Of a DNA stretch of 36,629 nt, positions 2,828 through 36,629 are shown in pieces. The notes under the pieces were generated by a model. The model had not been told where the DNA came from and did not search any database. It saw only the letters and a program-made list of their open reading frames with translations. The stretch spans positions 1 through 36,629 of the IMG/VR virus record IMGVR_UViG_3300009149_000120. One strand, given 5' to 3'. Made by a program: the position numbers and the translations under genes. How positions within the stretch are numbered: position 1 is the first letter of the stretch; each line of letters begins with the position of its first letter. This DNA is from a virus.

Positions 2828-3670
2828 ATGTCCGTTCAAACAAATAGAACATCTCCAAGCTACAACAACCAACGCAATTATTTGCCAGGTCTACCTGACC
2901 AACTCAGGGCCTACGACTTAGCACTGAGAGCTTGGCTTTGTCAGATGGAGTTCGACTATGGTGAGCGGGAGGATGCACCAGACATTCAGCCCCTACGTGT
3001 TGTTAAAGCATCACCGGAAAGGGCTTTTGCTGATTTAAGGAGAGACAAAGGCTTTAGTGATAACATTACAGAGTATGAAAGGACACAGGAACAGGTACCT
3101 CTTCCTATAGCATCTTTTACTAGGACTGACCTTACCGTTGATATGACTAGGTATAAGTCAGTGACAAATAAGAAGGTAGCCTACCTTCGAAAAGAAAAAG
3201 ATGAGGTATACCAGTGGAGGTTTCCACTACCATATAATTTCACGTATCAAGTAGACTTCTGGACTCGTTATGAGTCAACACTGGATTCGATGCGTGTGTG
3301 GACTGCCCTTAAATTCACTGGTGGGAACTACATGTACCTTCCAGTGGACTTCAGTGGCATATCAAGACACTACGGGCTACAAAATGTCTTTGTACAGTTT
3401 GGCGGGCTAAACGATACTTCTGATCTTGAACCTGGGTCAGAACAACGTGTAGAACGAGCTACAATGACATTAGATATCCAGGGTTGGATATTTTCACCTG
3501 TTGAGATCGCTAAGACAGTTCTTTGTGGGCAACTTGACGTTCTTGTTGTTCCTGATGATGTACCATTACAAGACCCGACTGACCCTGATAAGATAAACCC
3601 AGATGCTTGTGCCGATGAGTATAAGGTTCAAGAAATACAGTTCGACTTCACAGACGACACAACAACTTAG
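2828..3670 (+). CDS. Tail sheath stabiliser / tail terminator (T4 gp15-like)
   Basis: About 280 residues from the ATG at 2828. A GTG at 2789 would add 13 residues but lies within a strong hairpin. The central part matches what I recall of T4 gp15 (tail sheath stabiliser): 'PLPYNFTYQVDFWTRYESTLDSM', a hydrophobic strand, then 'ERATMTLDIQGWIFSPVE'. T4 gp15 has '.YELSIFTRYEDDM' and 'EWSLTFEVNGWMYPPV' at the same spacing. This family forms the hexameric ring that caps the contracted or extended sheath and joins it to the neck. Its place directly before the sheath gene fits. The C-terminal 45 residues are acidic and Pro/Asp rich, as in T4 gp15. Confidence 0.75.
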   Translation: MSVQTNRTSPSYNNQRNYLPGLPDQLRAYDLALRAWLCQMEFDYGEREDAPDIQPLRVVKASPERAFADLRRDKGFSDNITEYERTQEQVPLPIASFTRTDLTVDMTRYKSVTNKKVAYLRKEKDEVYQWRFPLPYNFTYQVDFWTRYESTLDSMRVWTALKFTGGNYMYLPVDFSGISRHYGLQNVFVQFGGLNDTSDLEPGSEQRVERATMTLDIQGWIFSPVEIAKTVLCGQLDVLVVPDDVPLQDPTDPDKINPDACADEYKVQEIQFDFTDDTTT

Positions 3671-3683
3671 GTAGGAAACAGCT

Positions 3684-6221
3684 ATGGCCGGAACATTTGT
3701 CAGCCCTGGCGTATACGTTCTAGAAAGGGATTTCAGCGATTACGCACCCGCTCTATCAACAGCCATTTTTGGAGTTGTTGGAGGTGCAAGCTGGGGACCT
3801 GTAAACGAACTAACGTTTATCACGAACGAAAACGCCCTTATTAACACATTCGGAGCACCAAAGGTAACAACTGGGTTACCTGTGATGTCCTCGACACCGA
3901 TGATTACTGCAGGTATTCACTACCTACGTCAGGGTAGCATCCTACAGGTGGTGCGAGTTGTAGACGGCTCTGAAGATACCGCTACAGTCAATGCCGTAGA
4001 CCCAGGAACACCTGCTACGTTTACATCAACACCAGACATTGTTGCTGGCGTTAACATGAGCACCAACAAGTTTGTCACTATTGACGTGAACAACGCTGGT
4101 CCAATCACAGTTGACTTGTCTACAGGGGCTTCGCTAGTATCCGCTGTTACCCGCGCAGAAATCATTACAAACCTACAGGCAGCGCTACCTGCTGCTAGTG
4201 TTACTGTCGCACCTGTCGATGGTGGCTCTGGTGAAGAGTGGATCAGCCTTACAACAGTAGCCGGTGGTGTTACTACGGAGATCGAGTTCCAACAGCCAGC
4301 CGGAAACGCAGCGTCCGCAGCTACAACTGACTCCTCCGCAGAGACCTTCAACCTACAGTTCCTAGTAGCTCCTCAGGTGCAAATTGACATTGACAACGGT
4401 GGCACGCAGAACTTCAGTTTCGCTTTCACCCCAGACGATGTAACTGGAATAACCTCTGAGCCTTACAACTTCTCTGCTGGTGGTGAGACACTGACGGTTG
4501 ACGTTGTTCTACCAGGACAGACAACTCCAACTGCTACACAGACAGTAACTTTCCAAGTTGGTGACTTTGCTGCGCCTGCTCTAGCTACGGCTGCAGAAGT
4601 TGCACTAGCAATCAGTAATCGTGCGATTGGTGTGTCTGCTACGGACTCTGGTGGTGTAGTTGTTATCACCTCTGACCTAGCTGGAACTAACGCATCAATC
4701 ACAGGTGTCTCTGGCTCAGCAGCCACACTCCTAGGTCTACCCGCAGCCAGTGCTGGTGGTGCAGGAGACGCTGCAGACGCTACAGCAGTTACCGCTGTTG
4801 AAGTTGCAGCAAAGCTAACAGCTACTATCACAGGAGCTACAGCAGTCGCCGCTACAGGCGTCGTAACAGTAACGTCCTCTACAACAGGATCAACTTCAGA
4901 AGTTGATGTTCAAACTGGTGGTGGTATCTTTGCAACGGGTGTAGTCAACGGACTCGACATAGCACCAGCACTAGACATTACACTTCCAGTATTCGGTCTC
5001 AACGTAACGTTCCCGAACCCTGCTGTAGCGTTCAACGGAACAGGCCCGTTCGCTACAGTCCAGGTTGACGCACTTTACCCAGGAACCCTTGGTAACCGTA
5101 TCTCAGTTCTAGTTGAGAACGGCTTCACTTCAGGGACTAAGAACTACTTTGTAGCCATTGATGGCTTTGAGGTAGAGCGATTCAACAATACCACACTAGC
5201 AGACCTAGCAGGTATTTCGTCTGAGTATGTCACCTTCGCGGACCTTGGAACCTCAACAGAGAACCCAGCAAACGGAACATACATACTAGTAGGTGGTCTA
5301 GACGGAACCTCTGGCCTAGTGGCAGGAGATTACATTGGAGCACAGCTTCCAGGTAACACGACAACTGGACTTCAGTTACTAGCTAATGCAGAGGTAACAG
5401 ACGTAAACATTATTGCTATCCCTGGTGTGTCTGATGGTGCTGTAATCGCGTCCATGGATACGCTCTGCCAGGCGCGTGGAGACTGCATGTTCATTGCAGA
5501 CCCTCCTGCTGGCCTAGACGTGTCTGGGGTTATTGATTGGCACAACGGAGTGGGTTACCCGCACGCTGCCTTCAACACGTCCTACGGAGCCACCTACTGG
5601 TCTTGGGTCTCCTGGTATGACAACTACAACCAGGTAAGCATCCTTGAGCCACCTAGTGGCTTCATGGCAGCTATCATGGCATTCACAGACTCTTCTTCTG
5701 AGCCTTGGTTCGCCCCTGCTGGTCTAACCCGTGGTCGTATCGTTGAGGCTCTTGATGTTGAGTGGTCTCCTGACCAGGGTCAGCGTGACCTCCTTTACGG
5801 AAACGGTAACGCAGTCAACCCAATCGTCAACAGCATTAGCTTCGGTGTCTTTGTCAGAGGACAGAGAACGCTTCAGAGGAGTCCAACGGCTCTTGACCGT
5901 GTAAACGTTAGACGACTCCTACTTGTCCTCCGTAAGGTAGTGGCAACAGCAATCGCCCGTCTAGAGTTTGAGCCTAACGACACAACTACTAGAACTAGAT
6001 TCGTAAATCTTGTTACACCGTTCCTTGAGAATGTTGTAGCTCGTAGGGGTATAGAAGACTTTAGTGTTATTGTAGACGAGTCAACAAATCCACCAATCGT
6101 TGTTAACAGAAATGAGCTTAGAGGAAAGATCCTACTTAAGCCAGTTAAGGTTGCTGAAATTATTGCGGTCGAGTTCACACTTCTCCCATCCGGTGCTACT
6201 TTCGCAGAAGCACTCCAGTAA
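3684..6221 (+). CDS. Tail sheath protein (enlarged, with inserted repeats)
   Basis: The contractile sheath subunit. The N-terminus 'GTFVSPGVYVLERDFS' followed by '..FGVVGGASWGPVNELTFI' and the C-terminus (RGQRTLQRS....VNVRR, LENVVARRGIEDFSVIVDES, GKILLKPVKVAEIIAVEFTL) are diagnostic of phage tail sheaths. At 845 residues it is much longer than the roughly 400-660 usual for the family. The extra length is mostly a Thr/Ala/Val/Gly-rich block at about residues 105-430, made of degenerate repeats with a 'GVVVITSDLAGTNASI' flavour, like bacterial Ig/hook-type surface repeats. A conserved sheath subdomain (YPGTLGNRISVLVENG) follows at about 460-520. The SD is AGGAAA, 8 nt before the ATG. The inserted domain probably decorates the outside of the sheath. 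Confidence 0.95.
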   Translation: MAGTFVSPGVYVLERDFSDYAPALSTAIFGVVGGASWGPVNELTFITNENALINTFGAPKVTTGLPVMSSTPMITAGIHYLRQGSILQVVRVVDGSEDTATVNAVDPGTPATFTSTPDIVAGVNMSTNKFVTIDVNNAGPITVDLSTGASLVSAVTRAEIITNLQAALPAASVTVAPVDGGSGEEWISLTTVAGGVTTEIEFQQPAGNAASAATTDSSAETFNLQFLVAPQVQIDIDNGGTQNFSFAFTPDDVTGITSEPYNFSAGGETLTVDVVLPGQTTPTATQTVTFQVGDFAAPALATAAEVALAISNRAIGVSATDSGGVVVITSDLAGTNASITGVSGSAATLLGLPAASAGGAGDAADATAVTAVEVAAKLTATITGATAVAATGVVTVTSSTTGSTSEVDVQTGGGIFATGVVNGLDIAPALDITLPVFGLNVTFPNPAVAFNGTGPFATVQVDALYPGTLGNRISVLVENGFTSGTKNYFVAIDGFEVERFNNTTLADLAGISSEYVTFADLGTSTENPANGTYILVGGLDGTSGLVAGDYIGAQLPGNTTTGLQLLANAEVTDVNIIAIPGVSDGAVIASMDTLCQARGDCMFIADPPAGLDVSGVIDWHNGVGYPHAAFNTSYGATYWSWVSWYDNYNQVSILEPPSGFMAAIMAFTDSSSEPWFAPAGLTRGRIVEALDVEWSPDQGQRDLLYGNGNAVNPIVNSISFGVFVRGQRTLQRSPTALDRVNVRRLLLVLRKVVATAIARLEFEPNDTTTRTRFVNLVTPFLENVVARRGIEDFSVIVDESTNPPIVVNRNELRGKILLKPVKVAEIIAVEFTLLPSGATFAEALQ

Positions 6222-21737: not shown

Positions 21738-22267
21738 TGAAGCACACCATCGTAGAATGCAGAATACTTCTTGAGGCTGAAAGGGTCCGAGACTTAGAGC
21801 GTAAAGCTAAGAGTAGCTTAGCGGAACCTCTAGATTTCGCACGTTATGTAGCAGCTTTAGAAAGAGCTAGCGGGTCTTTTGACAGGCACACAGAGATGCT
21901 CTGGAGAGATGATTACGCTGCGATCAAACGAGCATTCAATGACCTTGAAATAGAAAGGTTACGTAGAAAGCCAATTGTAACCGACAGCTACCATACGATG
22001 CACTTCTCTGTTAACCCTCCATCAGAGTTAGGAGGCCCTTATTCGTACCTCAAGGATGTTGCTTTTAGTCTCTACTACCCGACTAAAGCTTCAATGTTAC
22101 GAGGAGAATTTTCTATAAAATTTAGCGTATCGGACAACTCGTATTTTAGAACACGTTATAGACCAAACAACAGCCCAGATGAAGCTGCACTAATTCAACT
22201 ATCCGTAGAAACTGGCGAGAGGATAAGAAACTTTTTACTAAACACAGGTAAGGTAGCGAAAAGATAA
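21737..22267 (+). CDS. Unknown protein inside the fibre cluster
   Basis: A 176-residue protein overlapping its neighbours on both sides (TAATG at 21735-21739 and 22265-22269), so it belongs to the same translational block. Residues 1-90 are highly charged and helical (RVRDLERKAKSSLAEPLDFARYV.., ALERASG, IKRAFNDLEIERLRRK). Residues 95-175 are more beta-like (HFSVNPPSELGGPYSYLKD, REFS-type strand 'GEFSIKFSVSDNSYF', 'RYRPNNSPDEAALIQLS'). It does not share the fibre N-module. It could be a fibre chaperone or connector, as such genes often sit among fibres, but no family is recognised. Confidence 0.6.
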   Translation: MKHTIVECRILLEAERVRDLERKAKSSLAEPLDFARYVAALERASGSFDRHTEMLWRDDYAAIKRAFNDLEIERLRRKPIVTDSYHTMHFSVNPPSELGGPYSYLKDVAFSLYYPTKASMLRGEFSIKFSVSDNSYFRTRYRPNNSPDEAALIQLSVETGERIRNFLLNTGKVAKR

Positions 22268-23175
22268 TGGCACAAGGAGCAGAGAACGATCTAAAGAACA
22301 TCACGTTCTTCACGAATACCTCAACAGTTGATTTTGTTGAGGACAACGCACCTATTGACGACCTAAACTTCAACATACTCGCAGTAGACAACAAAGCTAT
22401 AGCAGGTAGTGTTAACGCCAACACCTCACAAGCATCCCTAGCCACACACATTGGCGGTAGTGGACTTTCAGCCCACCCAGCCGTTACAGACACTGTTGCT
22501 AGCTTTATGAGTGCAGCAGACAAGGTAAAGCTGGACGGTATCCAATACGAAGCGCAGATCAACATACTGTCTGCCACTGATGCTCTTGAACTTGTCGGAG
22601 GGGGCCTAACAAGACTCCACGAGCACATTACAGCAACAACCACTAATGACGGTATGATAGCTTCCGCTGACAAAACCAAACTCGACGGTATCCAAGCAGG
22701 CGCACAGGTAAACAACCTAACTTTGACACAGGCCGCTGCACTTACAAATGGTAATCCAGACGCCAACGCTTACCACACACATGTCACAGTGCCATTTACA
22801 GAAGTATTCACAGCAGGACTTCACTCTAACACTGACCACTTTGGGTTGGAAGGTGTTGTAAGTGTGTTTCCTGGGTTTGCAAAACAGTCATTTAGAAATG
22901 GTCCTGAGCAGATTGGTCCAGGCGCTACTCATTTTTCCTTTCCATACACACCTTTTATGACTACATTAGAATGTGTTATGGGGGGTCTTTCATACATTTC
23001 AGATCAAGGCGGGGGTGCTTCTTGGGGAAACCAAGAAGCTTTTGTAGTCACGGGTGTAGAAAGACTAAATACACCAGGTAACTTATGGGGTACTATACAC
23101 TACGAAGTTAAACCAGGTTACGGTGCAGGAGATATGAAAATGCGGTGTTGGCAAGGAGGTTATGGAATAGCATGA
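22267..23175 (+). CDS. Tail fibre protein (paralogue 2 of 4)
   Basis: A 302-residue protein. Residues 1-48 are the shared N-module (MAQGAENDLKNITFF, NAPIDDLNFNILAVDNKA). Residues about 58-175 hold two copies of a common phage fibre repeat: 'SAADKVKLDGIQYEAQINIL' and 'SADKTKLDGIQAGAQVNNL', each ending in a His motif (LHEH, YHTH). The last 115 residues are an aromatic/Gly-rich head ending 'GDMKMRCWQGGYGIA'. The next gene has the same architecture and a related ending, so these are full-length paralogues with diverged heads, probably with different receptor specificity. The start is a TAATG overlap; the stop overlaps the next ATG (ATGA). Confidence 0.8.
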   Translation: MAQGAENDLKNITFFTNTSTVDFVEDNAPIDDLNFNILAVDNKAIAGSVNANTSQASLATHIGGSGLSAHPAVTDTVASFMSAADKVKLDGIQYEAQINILSATDALELVGGGLTRLHEHITATTTNDGMIASADKTKLDGIQAGAQVNNLTLTQAAALTNGNPDANAYHTHVTVPFTEVFTAGLHSNTDHFGLEGVVSVFPGFAKQSFRNGPEQIGPGATHFSFPYTPFMTTLECVMGGLSYISDQGGGASWGNQEAFVVTGVERLNTPGNLWGTIHYEVKPGYGAGDMKMRCWQGGYGIA

Positions 23176-24044
23176 CACAAGGTGCAGAGAACGATCTCAT
23201 TGATATTCGGGTGTACCAGGAATCTACACCAGTCCTATTCTCTAGGAGTAACGAACCATTTGAAGATCTAAATACAAACATCCTAATTGTGGACAACAAG
23301 GCCATATTGGCTAGGGATACTGCACTGACTGTCCAGACAGACCTTGGAAACCACATTGGTCAAGCAGGTATTGTTGAGCATGCGTTAGCAACAACCGCTG
23401 TAGCTGGATTCATGTCGGCTCTGGATAAGGCTAAACTAGACCTGATACAAGAGCAAGCACAGTTAAACATCCTCTCACCTACAGACGCTATTGAGTTAAT
23501 TTCTAGAAAAGCTACAACACTCCACTCACACAATCTAGCTACGACTACATTAAATGGATTTTTCGCAGCAACAGATAAAGTAAAACTGGATGGTATACAA
23601 GCAGGCGCGCAGGTAAACAACATTACCAATGGAAATGCTGTTACGCTAACATCTGGTGGTAACGCAGACACACTACACAACCACTTCTTCTCAGCAGGCT
23701 CTGAAAACTTTACTGAACTAGTGCACTTTAATACAAACCACACCGGCATTCAGGGCGTTGCTGCATTTCCTGGTTTTGTTGATAGCGCGTTCGATGTAGG
23801 ACCTCCACTAGGTCCTGGTGTTGGGGTGCTATTACATACTGCTAATTTCACTTCTTTTTCATCCTTGGAGGTTGTTGCAGCAGGTTTTCAAGATATACGT
23901 GATTTTGGTTACTGGGGAGGTAGTGAATTTTTTGCAATTACGAATATTGTAATAACTGGGACAACCTCCGTACTTACTTTTGAAATTGGAGGCTACGGAG
24001 ATATGCAGATGAGAACATGGCAGAAAGGGTATGGTGTTCTATGA
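23172..24044 (+). CDS. Tail fibre protein (paralogue 3 of 4)
   Basis: 290 residues from ATG 23172, which overlaps the previous stop (ATGA); a start at 23145 would lie inside the previous gene. It has the shared N-module (MTQGAENDLIDIRVYQESTP, NEPFEDLNTNILIVDNKA) and two fibre repeats ('SALDKAKLDLIQEQAQLNIL' and 'ATDKVKLDGIQAGAQVNNI', followed by LHSH and LHNH). The diverged head ends 'GDMQMRTWQKGYGVL'. It differs from paralogue 2 mainly in the C-terminal 110 residues, the expected receptor-binding tip. The two genes are near-identical at DNA level over about 20 nt (22696 and 23601), a possible recombination seam. Confidence 0.8.
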   Translation: MTQGAENDLIDIRVYQESTPVLFSRSNEPFEDLNTNILIVDNKAILARDTALTVQTDLGNHIGQAGIVEHALATTAVAGFMSALDKAKLDLIQEQAQLNILSPTDAIELISRKATTLHSHNLATTTLNGFFAATDKVKLDGIQAGAQVNNITNGNAVTLTSGGNADTLHNHFFSAGSENFTELVHFNTNHTGIQGVAAFPGFVDSAFDVGPPLGPGVGVLLHTANFTSFSSLEVVAAGFQDIRDFGYWGGSEFFAITNIVITGTTSVLTFEIGGYGDMQMRTWQKGYGVL

Positions 24045-32725: not shown

Positions 32726-33175
32726 ATGAAACAACTCCCAATATGCACGAAGTGCTCCCTCCACAAAGGGGCACAAACTATCATGGTCCCTGGAAAGGGA
32801 TCCGACGAACCTACCATCATGTTTGTTGGGTTAGCTCCAAGTTGGGCTGATGATAAAGATGGTGAGTGTTTTGTCGGCAAACCTGGCAAAAAACTCATGG
32901 AGTTGCTTACAGAAGCGGAGATTGACCTAGATACTTGCCGCTTCACGAACATGGTAAGATGTATACCGTGGAAAGTTAAGGACAAGAAGACCCGAGATCC
33001 TACTGCGGAGGAGGTCATTACATGCGGTGACTATCTAATGAAGGAGATAGCACTTTACGATCCTGACATCATTGTCCCTCTAGGTAAGCTACCAACAGTC
33101 TATTTCCTCCCTCACCTTACCGATAAAGTGAAGATAACTAAGATTAGTGGGATTAGGTATAACTGGGTAAGGTGA
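32726..33175 (+). CDS. Uracil-DNA glycosylase-like protein, truncated at the C-terminus
   Basis: A 149-residue family 4-type uracil-DNA glycosylase (UDG). The N-terminus has the Cys pair C7/C10 (PICTKCSLHKG). The core has 'IMFVGLAPSWADDKDGECFV' (family 'vGeaPG..ED..G.pFvG'), 'GKPGKKLMELLTEAEID', 'FTNMVRCIPWK' (family 'TN.v.CrPp'), 'TCGDYLMKEI' and 'PDIIVPLGKLP'. Known enzymes continue with a C-terminal 'v.pT.HPa.ll' segment. That segment is missing here but appears, as 'VIPTLSPAALVNS', at the start of the next gene in another frame. Relatives in SPO1-like phages, as I recall, are fused to DNA polymerase, so this is probably the split front half of such a fusion. Frame 2 ends in TGA within the right arm of a 25-bp inverted repeat. 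Confidence 0.8.
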   Translation: MKQLPICTKCSLHKGAQTIMVPGKGSDEPTIMFVGLAPSWADDKDGECFVGKPGKKLMELLTEAEIDLDTCRFTNMVRCIPWKVKDKKTRDPTAEEVITCGDYLMKEIALYDPDIIVPLGKLPTVYFLPHLTDKVKITKISGIRYNWVR

Positions 33176-33190
33176 GGGAGGAAATAGACT
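33097..33190. repeat. Perfect 25-bp inverted repeat, 44-nt spacer
   Basis: The left arm (33097-33121) begins AGTCTATTTCC and ends CACCTTACC. The right arm (33166-33190) is its exact reverse complement, beginning GGTAAGGTGAGG and ending AATAGACT. The match stops on both sides. The right arm holds the UDG-like stop (33173-33175) and the polymerase SD GGGAGGA (33176-33182). RNA folding would bury that SD. The left arm lies in the UDG-like coding frame. It is the longest perfect inverted repeat I found. Confidence 0.9.
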
Positions 33191-33192
33191 AC

Positions 33193-36100
33193 ATGGTTAT
33201 CCCAACGCTAAGCCCTGCAGCGTTGGTGAACAGCGACCACTGGCTCGGAAAAGTAAACGAGTGCTTCAGACTAATTAAGAGTATCTCATCTGGGAAGTCG
33301 CTTGACGATATCTTCGATGCGTGCAGCTATGTAAACCTGGATACCTTGGATAAGGTTAAAGAATACGTAGACAATGCTATAGCTAATTACGACCCAACGG
33401 ATTGGAAGCAGTGCGTTTCGTTGGACGTAGAAACTGGATTCAAAGATCCACTTCCAGAAGACTACCACATCGGTATAAAGGAAATCTGTCTTAGTCCCTA
33501 CAACCCTTACCACACTATAGTGTCCGTTCAGATTAGCTGCGGTCCTGAAGAGGGTGCCATAATTCTGTTCTGGCATAAGGACTCTAATTTCACAGACTAC
33601 GCCAGTATAGCTGCTATATCCGGTCACCTACAACGCCTTGTTGATGTCATGCCAGTCATTGGCCAGAACTTTAAGTTTGACTGGCAGGAGTTCTATGTCT
33701 GTTTAGGTGTAGAGATTAAGAACTTCCTCTACGACTCAATGCTCGCACACTATCTGCTCTACCAAAAGAGTAGACCTATGGGCCTTGAGAACATGGCGGG
33801 CACCTACGTTGAAATGCCTTTCTTCAAGCAGGAGATGCATAAAGCCCTAGAGATGCTCCCTCCTGAAATAGCCCATATGGGTAATGTCGATTTAGACAAA
33901 TTAGTCCGGTATGGTTGTGGAGACTCCGACGCAGTTTACAGGCTCTACTTATACTGGAGGCCAATCTTAGAGGAGAACGGTTTGTGGGAAGTCTACGTAG
34001 ACATACTACAAGACGCAACAATATCTTACGCGCGTATTGAGTCCAACGGGATGATGATTGACCACGAGCGTCTGGCTAAGCTCGCAGTCGATTACGTAAA
34101 AGAGCTAAACGTGCTACTTAAAAACATACGTAAGAGTTCTTACGTTAAGGCTCTAGAGGAGATTACCTTAGACAACCATTACGATAAGGTTGAGAACGAA
34201 TACGCTAAGGAGAACCTGAAACGGGACCTGGCTGGGCGTCCGCACGTTAAGCGTAAGAAGTTCAGTCCAGAAGAAGAGCTTGTAAGGGAGAACAAAACTA
34301 GAGCTAAACTTCGGTTCAAGCCTAGCTCCTCAGACCAACTAAGACTTCTCTTCTACGATGACAGACTTATGGAGTTTGACTCAGCAGGAAAAGGACAGAC
34401 TAAGGCTGGGAGAGTATCTGCAGATAAGAACGCAAGAGAGCTAATCCTACAAGATGCTGCTGCAGAGCTAGCTACGCTTAAAGCTACTGGGCATGACGAT
34501 ATAGACGAAGCTGTAGGGGCTTTGGAGGAATGTGTACAACTAGTTGAGGAAATAAATGAGTGGGTTGGAAAGAACAAGCTCCATTCTGCATACATTAAGA
34601 GTGCTCCAGAGTTAATACACGACAAAGGTGAGGGGGGTAGAGCCTGGCCTATACCGTTTCCTGCTGAGGTTTGTCCTTGGTGCTTCCACGCTAACTTTAA
34701 GATCAACGGAACTGAAACAGGAAGACTTTCTTGTGAGCACCCTAACCTACAGCAGATGCCCTTCAAGTCCCTCATTAAGTGGATGTTTATATCTAGGTGG
34801 AAGGCACGTGGTGGGGTGCTCCTACAAGGTGACTATTCTCAAGCTGAACTTCGTGTTCTAGCCAGGCTCTGTAACGAGCAGGCTATGCTTGACGCCTTCA
34901 ACCGTGGGGAGGACATTCACATGTTCGTAGCCACACTTGTCTTCGGAGCTTTAGGAGTTCCTGCTGACAAGATTGATAAGAAGATGCGGCGTATCGCCAA
35001 GAGGGCTTCTTTCGGTATCGTCTATGGTCAGGGAGCTAAAGCGCTGGCCAAGGGATTCGGAACAACTGTAGACGAGGCTAAAGAAATCATCAAAACTCTG
35101 TTTAGGGTGTTCCCTAATCTTAGAGGTTGGATGGACGAGAAGATCCAGCAGTGTAAGGACGAGGGACTCGTCACGTCGCCTATGGGGCGTATCCGGTGGA
35201 TTAAGGACGCAACTAGCCGTGACGAGTTTAAAGCTGCTGAGGCGTCCCGCAGGGCTGTTAACACACCTATACAATGCTTACTTGCGGGGACTCTCGTGAC
35301 AACAAGCAATGGAATGGTCCCTATAGAGGAGCTTGTCGGTAAAAAGTTTGATGTGGTGCTGCACGGCGAAACTTACAAGTGTGGAGGTGTTGTAAAGACG
35401 GGCCGTAAGAAAATCTCTAGGATTCACTTAGCAGATGGGCGTATTGTATCGTGTAGCCCTAACCACAAATGGGGTATCTTCTCGTATCCTGATTACGTGT
35501 GGAAAGACACTGTCGATATAGTGCCAGGGGATTGTATGATGACAGCCCTAGATGTTGTAGAGGGTAACAATGCTATAACTGTAGTCGTAGACAGGGGTAA
35601 AAATAGGTGGGGAGGTAAGCACACATCTGGGGCGGTTAGAAGTATTAAACTACCGGGTGATATGACTTGGAAACTAGCAGAGGTTATTGGAAAGCTTGTA
35701 GCTGATGGTAATTATTCCAGGCGAGGTAGGATAGCTTTTGTAGATGCCTGTCCATCCGCTACAGCCCACTTTAGTAAAGTGTTAGAGAAGTTGGGTTTAA
35801 ATGTTCGCATAGACGATGCATCAAAGTATTCTAAAAAGGCTACTAAACCTTTATGGAGGGCATCTTTTGATTCTGTGCAGTTGTGGACTTATTTTAAAGA
35901 GTCTTGGGGCCTTGATATGATTTCAGGTGCCGCTAACAAAACTTCTCCGAGAGAGATTTTCAGAGCAACTCCTGCGGTTAGGGCAGCGTATCTTAGGGGT
36001 TTGTTCCACGGTGACGGAACAATGACTCCTGACGGGTTTCCTTTGTATGTTTCAATGTCTCTAAAACTCTGCCAGGAGATTCATACGCTTTTAAACTCTC

Positions 36101-36629
36101 TTGGTATTAAGGCAAGTATCTCATCTTACGAAGGAGGGGTTCAAAAGGTTACTGTGTGTAAAATACACGCTAATCGTTTCATGGAAGTTGTTGGGTTTGT
36201 TGCAGCAAAACATACTGACGCTCTTACCAGGTTAACAGAAAGTAGAAATAGAGATGGGCAATGTTTGGTATTGAACGAGGAATGCTTAGTAGCTTGGGCC
36301 ACTTATTTAAAACCACATAGTCACAAAATGTCTAAAAACGCTAGGTCTCACCTACATAGAATGCTAAATGGATCTGGTAGTTGGTGGGGATTGCAGAGGT
36401 GTGCAAGAGAGGCAAGTATCTCTTTACCGAACTGGTTATGCTCCAGCGCCCCTGTTAAGGTCGTTAAAGTTGTTCACACAAATACAGAAGATGACATGTA
36501 TGATGTTGTAAACAGCCACCACCCTAAAAGAGGTTTTGCAGTGCAAGGTGGTTTGGTTTGCCATAATTCGGCAGCTAGTGACTGGACACTATGTGCGCTT
36601 AACAACATACAGAAACGCTTCATAGAAGA
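33193..36629 (+). CDS. Family A DNA polymerase with intein (3' partial)
   Basis: Open to the right edge (1145 codons). Start: ATG 33193, 10 nt after GGAGGA; GTG 33172 is an alternative. Residues 1-30 (MVIPTLSPAALVNS) look like the end of a glycosylase fold. The 3'-5' exonuclease follows: Exo I 'SLDVETG' (D78-E80), Exo II 'VIGQNFKFDW', Exo III 'YGCGDSDAVY'. Polymerase motif A is 'GDYSQAELR' (D547), and motif B 'RRIAKRASFGIVYG' has R599, K603, F607 and Y611. Precursor residues 695-1125 are an intein inserted after 'VNTPIQ', and the extein resumes 'SAASDWTLCALNNIQ'. The catalytic HDE motif C lies beyond the window. The organisation matches SPO1-like phage polymerases. Confidence 0.93.
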   Translation, partial: MVIPTLSPAALVNSDHWLGKVNECFRLIKSISSGKSLDDIFDACSYVNLDTLDKVKEYVDNAIANYDPTDWKQCVSLDVETGFKDPLPEDYHIGIKEICLSPYNPYHTIVSVQISCGPEEGAIILFWHKDSNFTDYASIAAISGHLQRLVDVMPVIGQNFKFDWQEFYVCLGVEIKNFLYDSMLAHYLLYQKSRPMGLENMAGTYVEMPFFKQEMHKALEMLPPEIAHMGNVDLDKLVRYGCGDSDAVYRLYLYWRPILEENGLWEVYVDILQDATISYARIESNGMMIDHERLAKLAVDYVKELNVLLKNIRKSSYVKALEEITLDNHYDKVENEYAKENLKRDLAGRPHVKRKKFSPEEELVRENKTRAKLRFKPSSSDQLRLLFYDDRLMEFDSAGKGQTKAGRVSADKNARELILQDAAAELATLKATGHDDIDEAVGALEECVQLVEEINEWVGKNKLHSAYIKSAPELIHDKGEGGRAWPIPFPAEVCPWCFHANFKINGTETGRLSCEHPNLQQMPFKSLIKWMFISRWKARGGVLLQGDYSQAELRVLARLCNEQAMLDAFNRGEDIHMFVATLVFGALGVPADKIDKKMRRIAKRASFGIVYGQGAKALAKGFGTTVDEAKEIIKTLFRVFPNLRGWMDEKIQQCKDEGLVTSPMGRIRWIKDATSRDEFKAAEASRRAVNTPIQCLLAGTLVTTSNGMVPIEELVGKKFDVVLHGETYKCGGVVKTGRKKISRIHLADGRIVSCSPNHKWGIFSYPDYVWKDTVDIVPGDCMMTALDVVEGNNAITVVVDRGKNRWGGKHTSGAVRSIKLPGDMTWKLAEVIGKLVADGNYSRRGRIAFVDACPSATAHFSKVLEKLGLNVRIDDASKYSKKATKPLWRASFDSVQLWTYFKESWGLDMISGAANKTSPREIFRATPAVRAAYLRGLFHGDGTMTPDGFPLYVSMSLKLCQEIHTLLNSLGIKASISSYEGGVQKVTVCKIHANRFMEVVGFVAAKHTDALTRLTESRNRDGQCLVLNEECLVAWATYLKPHSHKMSKNARSHLHRMLNGSGSWWGLQRCAREASISLPNWLCSSAPVKVVKVVHTNTEDDMYDVVNSHHPKRGFAVQGGLVCHNSAASDWTLCALNNIQKRFIE
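35275..36567 (+). mobile_element. LAGLIDADG intein in the DNA polymerase
   Basis: 431 codons between 'NTPIQ' and 'SAASDW', a sequence conserved and continuous in family A polymerases. The first residue is Cys, with block A 'CLLAGTLVTTSNGMVPIEEL'. Block B is 'DGRIVSCSPNHKWGIF' (S..H instead of T..H). Two DOD-type endonuclease motifs are 'LAEVIGKLVADGNY' and 'AAYLRGLFHGDGTM'. Block F/G reads 'YDVVNSHHPKRGFAVQ' then 'GGLVCHN' with Ser as the +1 residue. All splicing residues (C1, terminal His-Asn, Ser+1) are present, so splicing and homing are likely active. The insertion lies between motifs B and C. Confidence 0.93.

Follow-up and report, generated by a model that had tools for sequence, protein, structure and literature searches.

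Organization of the locus

The window, by which is meant the whole stretch of 36,629 nucleotides analysed here (IMG/VR record IMGVR_UViG_3300009149_000120), encodes tail sheath and tube, baseplate and tape measure proteins, and the contig is thus assigned to a myovirus. The tail sheath protein (3684-6221) is 845 aa long, with its main family match starting only at residue 318. Two adjacent genes at 22267-23175 and 23145-24044 match the same tail-fibre-type families (phrog_28171, phrog_6907 and phrog_7389), a sequence pattern that suggests a duplicated tail fibre gene. Towards the end of the window lie UDG, exonuclease and PolA domains in the order found in phage UDG-PolA fusions, here distributed over two reading frames. 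The features of this region are as follows.

32726-33175, + strand: ORF1, the N-terminal part of a family-4-type UDG domain, 149 aa (ORF translation, Pfam, alignments)
32828-32842, + strand: motif A, GLAPS (GEAPG in family 4), with Leu at the position of the catalytic Glu (alignments)
33097-33121, + strand: arm 1 of a perfect inverted repeat, the putative template copy, coding for the conserved YFLPHL and collinear with relatives
33122-33165, + strand: spacer of 44 nt (DKVKITKISGIRYNW), with orientation and codons as in relatives
33166-33190, + strand: arm 2, the derived copy, found where the relatives have the loop HPxTxDxY and causing a frame shift of -1
33173-33175, + strand: TGA stop of ORF1, apparently arisen within arm 2 (sequence, ORF list)
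33174-33182, + strand: Shine-Dalgarno sequence GAGGGAGGA in arm 2, 10 nt before ATG 33193 (-11.4 kcal/mol with the anti-Shine-Dalgarno sequence)
33193-36627, + strand: ORF2, counted from ATG 33193 and still open where the contig ends, with the last part of the UDG fold, a 3'-5' exonuclease and a family A polymerase interrupted by an intein
33211-33213, + strand: first residue of motif B, Ser (AGC) where relatives have His (alignments)
35275-36567, + strand: intein with a LAGLIDADG domain in PolA (NTPIQ^CLLAG...VCHN^SAAS; ORF translation, Pfam)

ORF1 ends in GIRYNWVR and is truncated directly ahead of motif B. The Pfam UDG profile matches it with an E value of 6.6e-22, but over profile positions 1-102 of 141 only. 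The four Fe-S cysteine positions are kept (CTKC, VRC and ITC align with the family 4 cysteines), as is the TN motif. The remaining UDG segment (VIPTLSPAAL...) is found in another frame, at the start of the exonuclease-PolA ORF: YMVIPTLSPAALVNSDHW is one frame off ORF1 at the N-terminal start of this long ORF, and MVIPTLSPAALVNSDHW sits in the frame of 33193/33172 and continues into the exonuclease and PolA domains. In phrog_17, a family of phage DNA polymerases with UDG, the ORF1 match runs up to profile position 582 and the ORF2 match resumes at 604, so that the two halves nearly abut within one family profile. A first-pass annotation of this DNA had placed the end of the UDG-like frame after GIRYNWVR and the remainder of the fold in the frame of 33193, reading into the exonuclease domain of the polymerase; the translations and the Pfam and phrog_17 matches bear out both placements.

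ORF2 has an alternative start, GTG at 33172-33174, which overlaps the ORF1 stop as GTGA. A stop at 33160-33162 closes the downstream frame, which is open from 33163 onwards, and the frames of ORF1 and ORF2 therefore overlap by 13 nt only (33163-33175, CTGGGTAAGGTGA).

Relatives and the ancestral gene

The nearest relative found is an IMG/VR contig (3300010430_002587, here L002), in which UDG, exonuclease and polymerase form a single ORF of 989 aa. Its polymerase is 72% and its UDG part 64% identical to that of the window, DNA identity averages 68% over the gene, and the segment of the conserved UDG C-terminus that is mostly kept in ORF2 is 60% identical over 35 residues. L002 has no intein, and the PolA intein site of the window is empty in it. 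A second relative (3300037264_001053, here L064), about 52% identical, has the DnaB-primase-UDGpol order of the window and a single open frame up to its contig end; the gene order is common to all three. The more distant contigs L054-L062, with 29-43% identity in the polymerase palm, likewise have an open frame across the junction.

Among annotated phages, a match to the UDG end of L002 was found in 53 records, always in one piece and in a single frame, and in all but one of them (52/53) this match extends past the break point. UDG and polymerase are fused in SPO1 gp31, LysYB1, PMBT14, phiLo and others, and the polymerase I of phage PaBG has likewise been described with a UDG domain (PMC7412058). 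A search of genome contigs returned distant polymerases only, with best segments 24-38% identical. In one phage (MW202554.1), neighbouring ORFs at 1727-2986 and 3138-4364 are both annotated as DNA polymerase; its UDG part lies in the first ORF, and this gene is thus split elsewhere than in the window.

The single continuous UDG-PolA reading frame of the relatives is broken in the window, and since both near and distant relatives are fused in one frame, the split is best read as the derived state. Judged from these comparisons of sequence, the UDG-polymerase fusion is ancestral, the break is specific to the lineage of the window and arm 2 is the derived copy. The proposal that prompted the comparison, that an ancestral glycosylase-polymerase fusion had been split over two frames, is upheld by L002, L064, SPO1 and the distant phages. 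Both close relatives hold the two halves together with the loop that the window lacks. Homologues whose halves are always separate genes were not found, nor were the residues after 33193 unlike a glycosylase C-terminus.

Glycosylase motifs

In family 4 enzymes and UdgX, the Glu of motif A activates the nucleophile, and the His of motif B together with the Asn of the TN motif holds the uracil (PMC10359453). Motif B reads SPAA at 33211-33222 in the window vs HPAA in both L002 and L064; the Ser for His exchange noticed in the first-pass annotation (LSPAA) is thereby confirmed by alignment, and the motif A Glu is missing as well. The latter is lacking throughout the clade (GIAPG in L002, GISPS in L064), whereas the change from His to Ser is confined to the window. 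The glycosylase is therefore probably inactive. Because L002 and L064 lack the Glu yet keep the His, activity was probably weakened across the clade before the split, and this earlier weakening may have made the split tolerable. Given that the four Fe-S cysteine positions are kept, the domain may have a structural role.

The lineage of L058 and L059 retains the Glu of motif A as well as the His of motif B, unlike the clade of the window. In these contigs (L058 2241-5960, also L059) the UDG-polymerase fusion is interrupted within UDG motif A by an intein that bears an HNH endonuclease (GEAPG^CVSGDT...IIIHN^STEDKQGKPF), recognized in L058 by Pfam Intein_splicing (E 2.3e-12) and HNH_3.

The inverted repeat and the origin of the break

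The first-pass annotation had located the break in one arm of a perfect 25-bp inverted repeat, and the TGA at 33173-33175 does lie inside the second arm. The repeat (33097-33121 and 33166-33190) is exact at 25 of 25 bp, with arms 44 nt apart; the second-best inverted repeat in the window is 18 nt long at 83% identity. Chance is ruled out as its source: 200 sequences simulated from a first-order Markov model of the window gave no perfect repeat longer than 14 bp with arms up to 300 nt apart. Neither L002 nor L064 has the repeat, an exact search for the repeat arm in IMG/VR gave no match, and blastn against phages gave none either. Searches for a known RNA family returned only models of microRNA precursors, far below their gathering scores, as can happen with any long stem.

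The two arms differ in how they relate to the other genomes. Arm 1 aligns with L002 at 16 of 25 positions, ungapped, as ordinary coding DNA would, and arm 2 matches L002 at 11 of 25 positions with one gap vs 25 of 25 to its own arm 1. At the position of arm 2, L002 and L064 have the loop HPxTxDxYT in common (NWVHPTTEDEYTVIPT and TWQHPATGDDYTVVPT, respectively); the window has NWVR followed by a stop, or REEIDYMVIPT when the second frame is read. The three-way DNA alignment is collinear before GGT (33166-33168) and after GACT (33187-33190). Between these lie 18 nt in the window vs 19 in L002, unlike either relative and exactly complementary to part of 33097-33121. The clustered multi-base change is thus limited to arm 2, arm 1 being collinear with the relatives. 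GGT is common to the window and L002 and GACT to the window and L064, and both are candidate switch-point stretches. A rough log10 likelihood ratio in favour of copying, with hand-set priors, is 8-11.

An inserted element or intron is rejected because the spacer and both flanks are collinear with both relatives, and an invertible segment because the spacer has the same orientation in all three. The mechanism that we infer from the alignments is one of replication. The ancestral myovirus gene would have coded for one protein, a family-4-type UDG followed by a 3'-5' exonuclease and a family A polymerase. A single intramolecular template switch of the quasipalindrome type may then have written the reverse complement of 33097-33121 over the loop 44 nt downstream, the switches probably being steered by short complementarity that was already present (AGTC/GACT and ACC/GGT). 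Such an event would have rewritten about 18-19 nt and lost one base, with a shift of frame, and the new arm would have brought with it a stop codon, TGA, as well as a strong Shine-Dalgarno sequence. At ATG 33193, which is not part of the copied arm, L002 has ACG (Thr) and L064 has ACT (Thr), and this start codon probably arose by a separate substitution. Synonymous sites between the genomes are near saturation (pS 0.71-0.87 in the genes compared in the correct frame) and the arms are still identical, which points to an event that is recent relative to the divergence, unless the stem has been maintained.

Translation of the split gene

The Shine-Dalgarno match of GAGGGAGGA is the second strongest of 41 starts scanned, and its spacing of 10 nt to ATG 33193 is slightly long. 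The predicted RNA structure with the 25-bp stem has a free energy of -54.5 kcal/mol (z -6.3), and the predicted probability that the Shine-Dalgarno site is unpaired is 0.0 in the free RNA and 0.69 when arm 1 is unavailable. Arm 2 would be covered by a ribosome that terminates ORF1 at 33175, so that translation of the polymerase should depend on translation of ORF1. With the Shine-Dalgarno site hidden in the stem unless ORF1 is translated, the folding models point to two coupled ORFs rather than to frameshifting, and translational coupling with re-initiation at ORF2 is what we infer. The stem in the mRNA would keep the site shut until it is melted by a ribosome passing through ORF1, which then halts at the TGA, and re-initiation at ATG 33193, or at GTG 33172, would then yield the polymerase. 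The resulting N-terminus would retain just the last part of the UDG fold, and ORF1 may persist as a translated leader or as a structural remnant.

Taken as a whole, the best explanation of the locus, to which a probability of about 0.65 is given on a single metagenomic contig, is that one templated copying event split the gene, which now consists of two coupled ORFs with a glycosylase that is most likely inactive. It is a more tentative proposition, held at a little under even odds, that the one slip both split the fused polymerase and supplied stop, ribosome-binding site and coupling stem, the arrangement being tuned later by the new ATG.

Alternative readings of the junction

The inverted copy could have been produced during library preparation, amplification or assembly, the real gene being fused. 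Fold-back and template-switched molecules do produce inverted copies, the sole evidence for the split is one metagenomic contig (searches that may lack near-identical records found no second isolate that carries it), and the mutation disrupts a gene that is fused elsewhere. Against this, both flanks of arm 2 are collinear with the relatives, so that such molecules must have switched twice and come to dominate the consensus. The helicase, DnaB and primase genes and the polymerase up to its intein, all of which L002 has too, contain no further frame break, which speaks against generally poor sequence and is no proof for this junction. The substitution that gave the ATG close by, like the missing motif B His, also fits a lineage with a genuinely decayed domain. 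An artefact is accordingly considered unlikely, at roughly one chance in five.

It is similarly improbable that the two halves, made separately, come together again on the polymerase as a split but complete UDG domain. The Fe-S cysteine positions are indeed kept in ORF1, and ORF2 retains most of the conserved C-terminal segment; however, the loop ahead of motif B is removed by the break, and with neither the Glu of motif A nor the His of motif B in place, activity would not return.

It is very unlikely that the contig stems from a defective genome, a dead-end mutant that produces no polymerase. A closed stem across the start region could silence ORF2, but the variant is an assembled consensus, ORF2 with its intein and the other shared genes are all open, and there is an ATG with a strong Shine-Dalgarno site.

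Least probable of all is a programmed -1 ribosomal frameshift that joins the frames into a full-length UDG-polymerase: the frames do overlap and a strong stem is close by, but the 13-nt overlap has no X XXY YYZ heptamer when read by eye, and the site itself lies in the 3' arm of the stem, which would already be open when the ribosome arrives, with no stem downstream. Transcriptional slippage is rejected as well, the overlap having no run of A or T. The first-pass annotation had left a choice between a real mutation, a frameshift and a sequence error; a real mutation, by templated copying, is the best supported, and the frameshift is disfavoured.

Comparison with known systems

The usual explanation of gene fission is that point mutations or insertions break the gene and that new start signals then evolve slowly. 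In the window, a single templated copy could account for the stop codon, the change of frame, the Shine-Dalgarno site and the coupling stem together, and since the fused ancestral form is preserved in relatives, the origin of the split gene is open to test. The locus also indicates that the UDG domain of such polymerases can decay in some lineages with the polymerase staying conserved.

Termination followed by re-initiation is an established form of translational coupling. As in systems with a sequestered Shine-Dalgarno site, the window has overlapping stop and start codons (GTGA) and a start region in a stem that is predicted to be opened by upstream translation; unlike in those, the stem was apparently made by the same mutation that made the second gene.

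UDG-PolA fusions such as SPO1 gp31, the PaBG DNA polymerase I (PMC7412058), that of Thermus phage phiLo and the members of phrog_17 have the same domain order and orientation as the window, which differs from them in its two frames, in the missing loop before motif B, in the absence of the motif A Glu and motif B His, and in its polymerase intein. A polymerase from two neighbouring ORFs is likewise found in OM43 phages of the MEP401 kind (PMC10580990) and in the MIJ3 PolB with its split intein (PMC6892783). There the split is by an inserted ORF or a split intein, whereas in the window nothing is inserted and the break falls in the N-terminal UDG domain.

Quasipalindrome and template-switch mutations are known from phage T4 rIIB, E. 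coli thyA and yeast genes (PMC7202029, PMC8604942), and template switches have been described as a source of RNA hairpins (PMC8794818). The window resembles these in having one arm that appears ancestral and another rewritten as the exact reverse complement of the first, with candidate stretches of short complementarity at its ends, so that several bases have changed at once and the stem is perfect. It differs in its long arm (25 bp), its 44-nt spacer and a product that splits a gene and carries a stop and a Shine-Dalgarno sequence; no description of gene fission by such a template switch was found in the literature searched. The UDG-polymerase fusion and the type of mutation are thus both already known, and it is their combination that is new.
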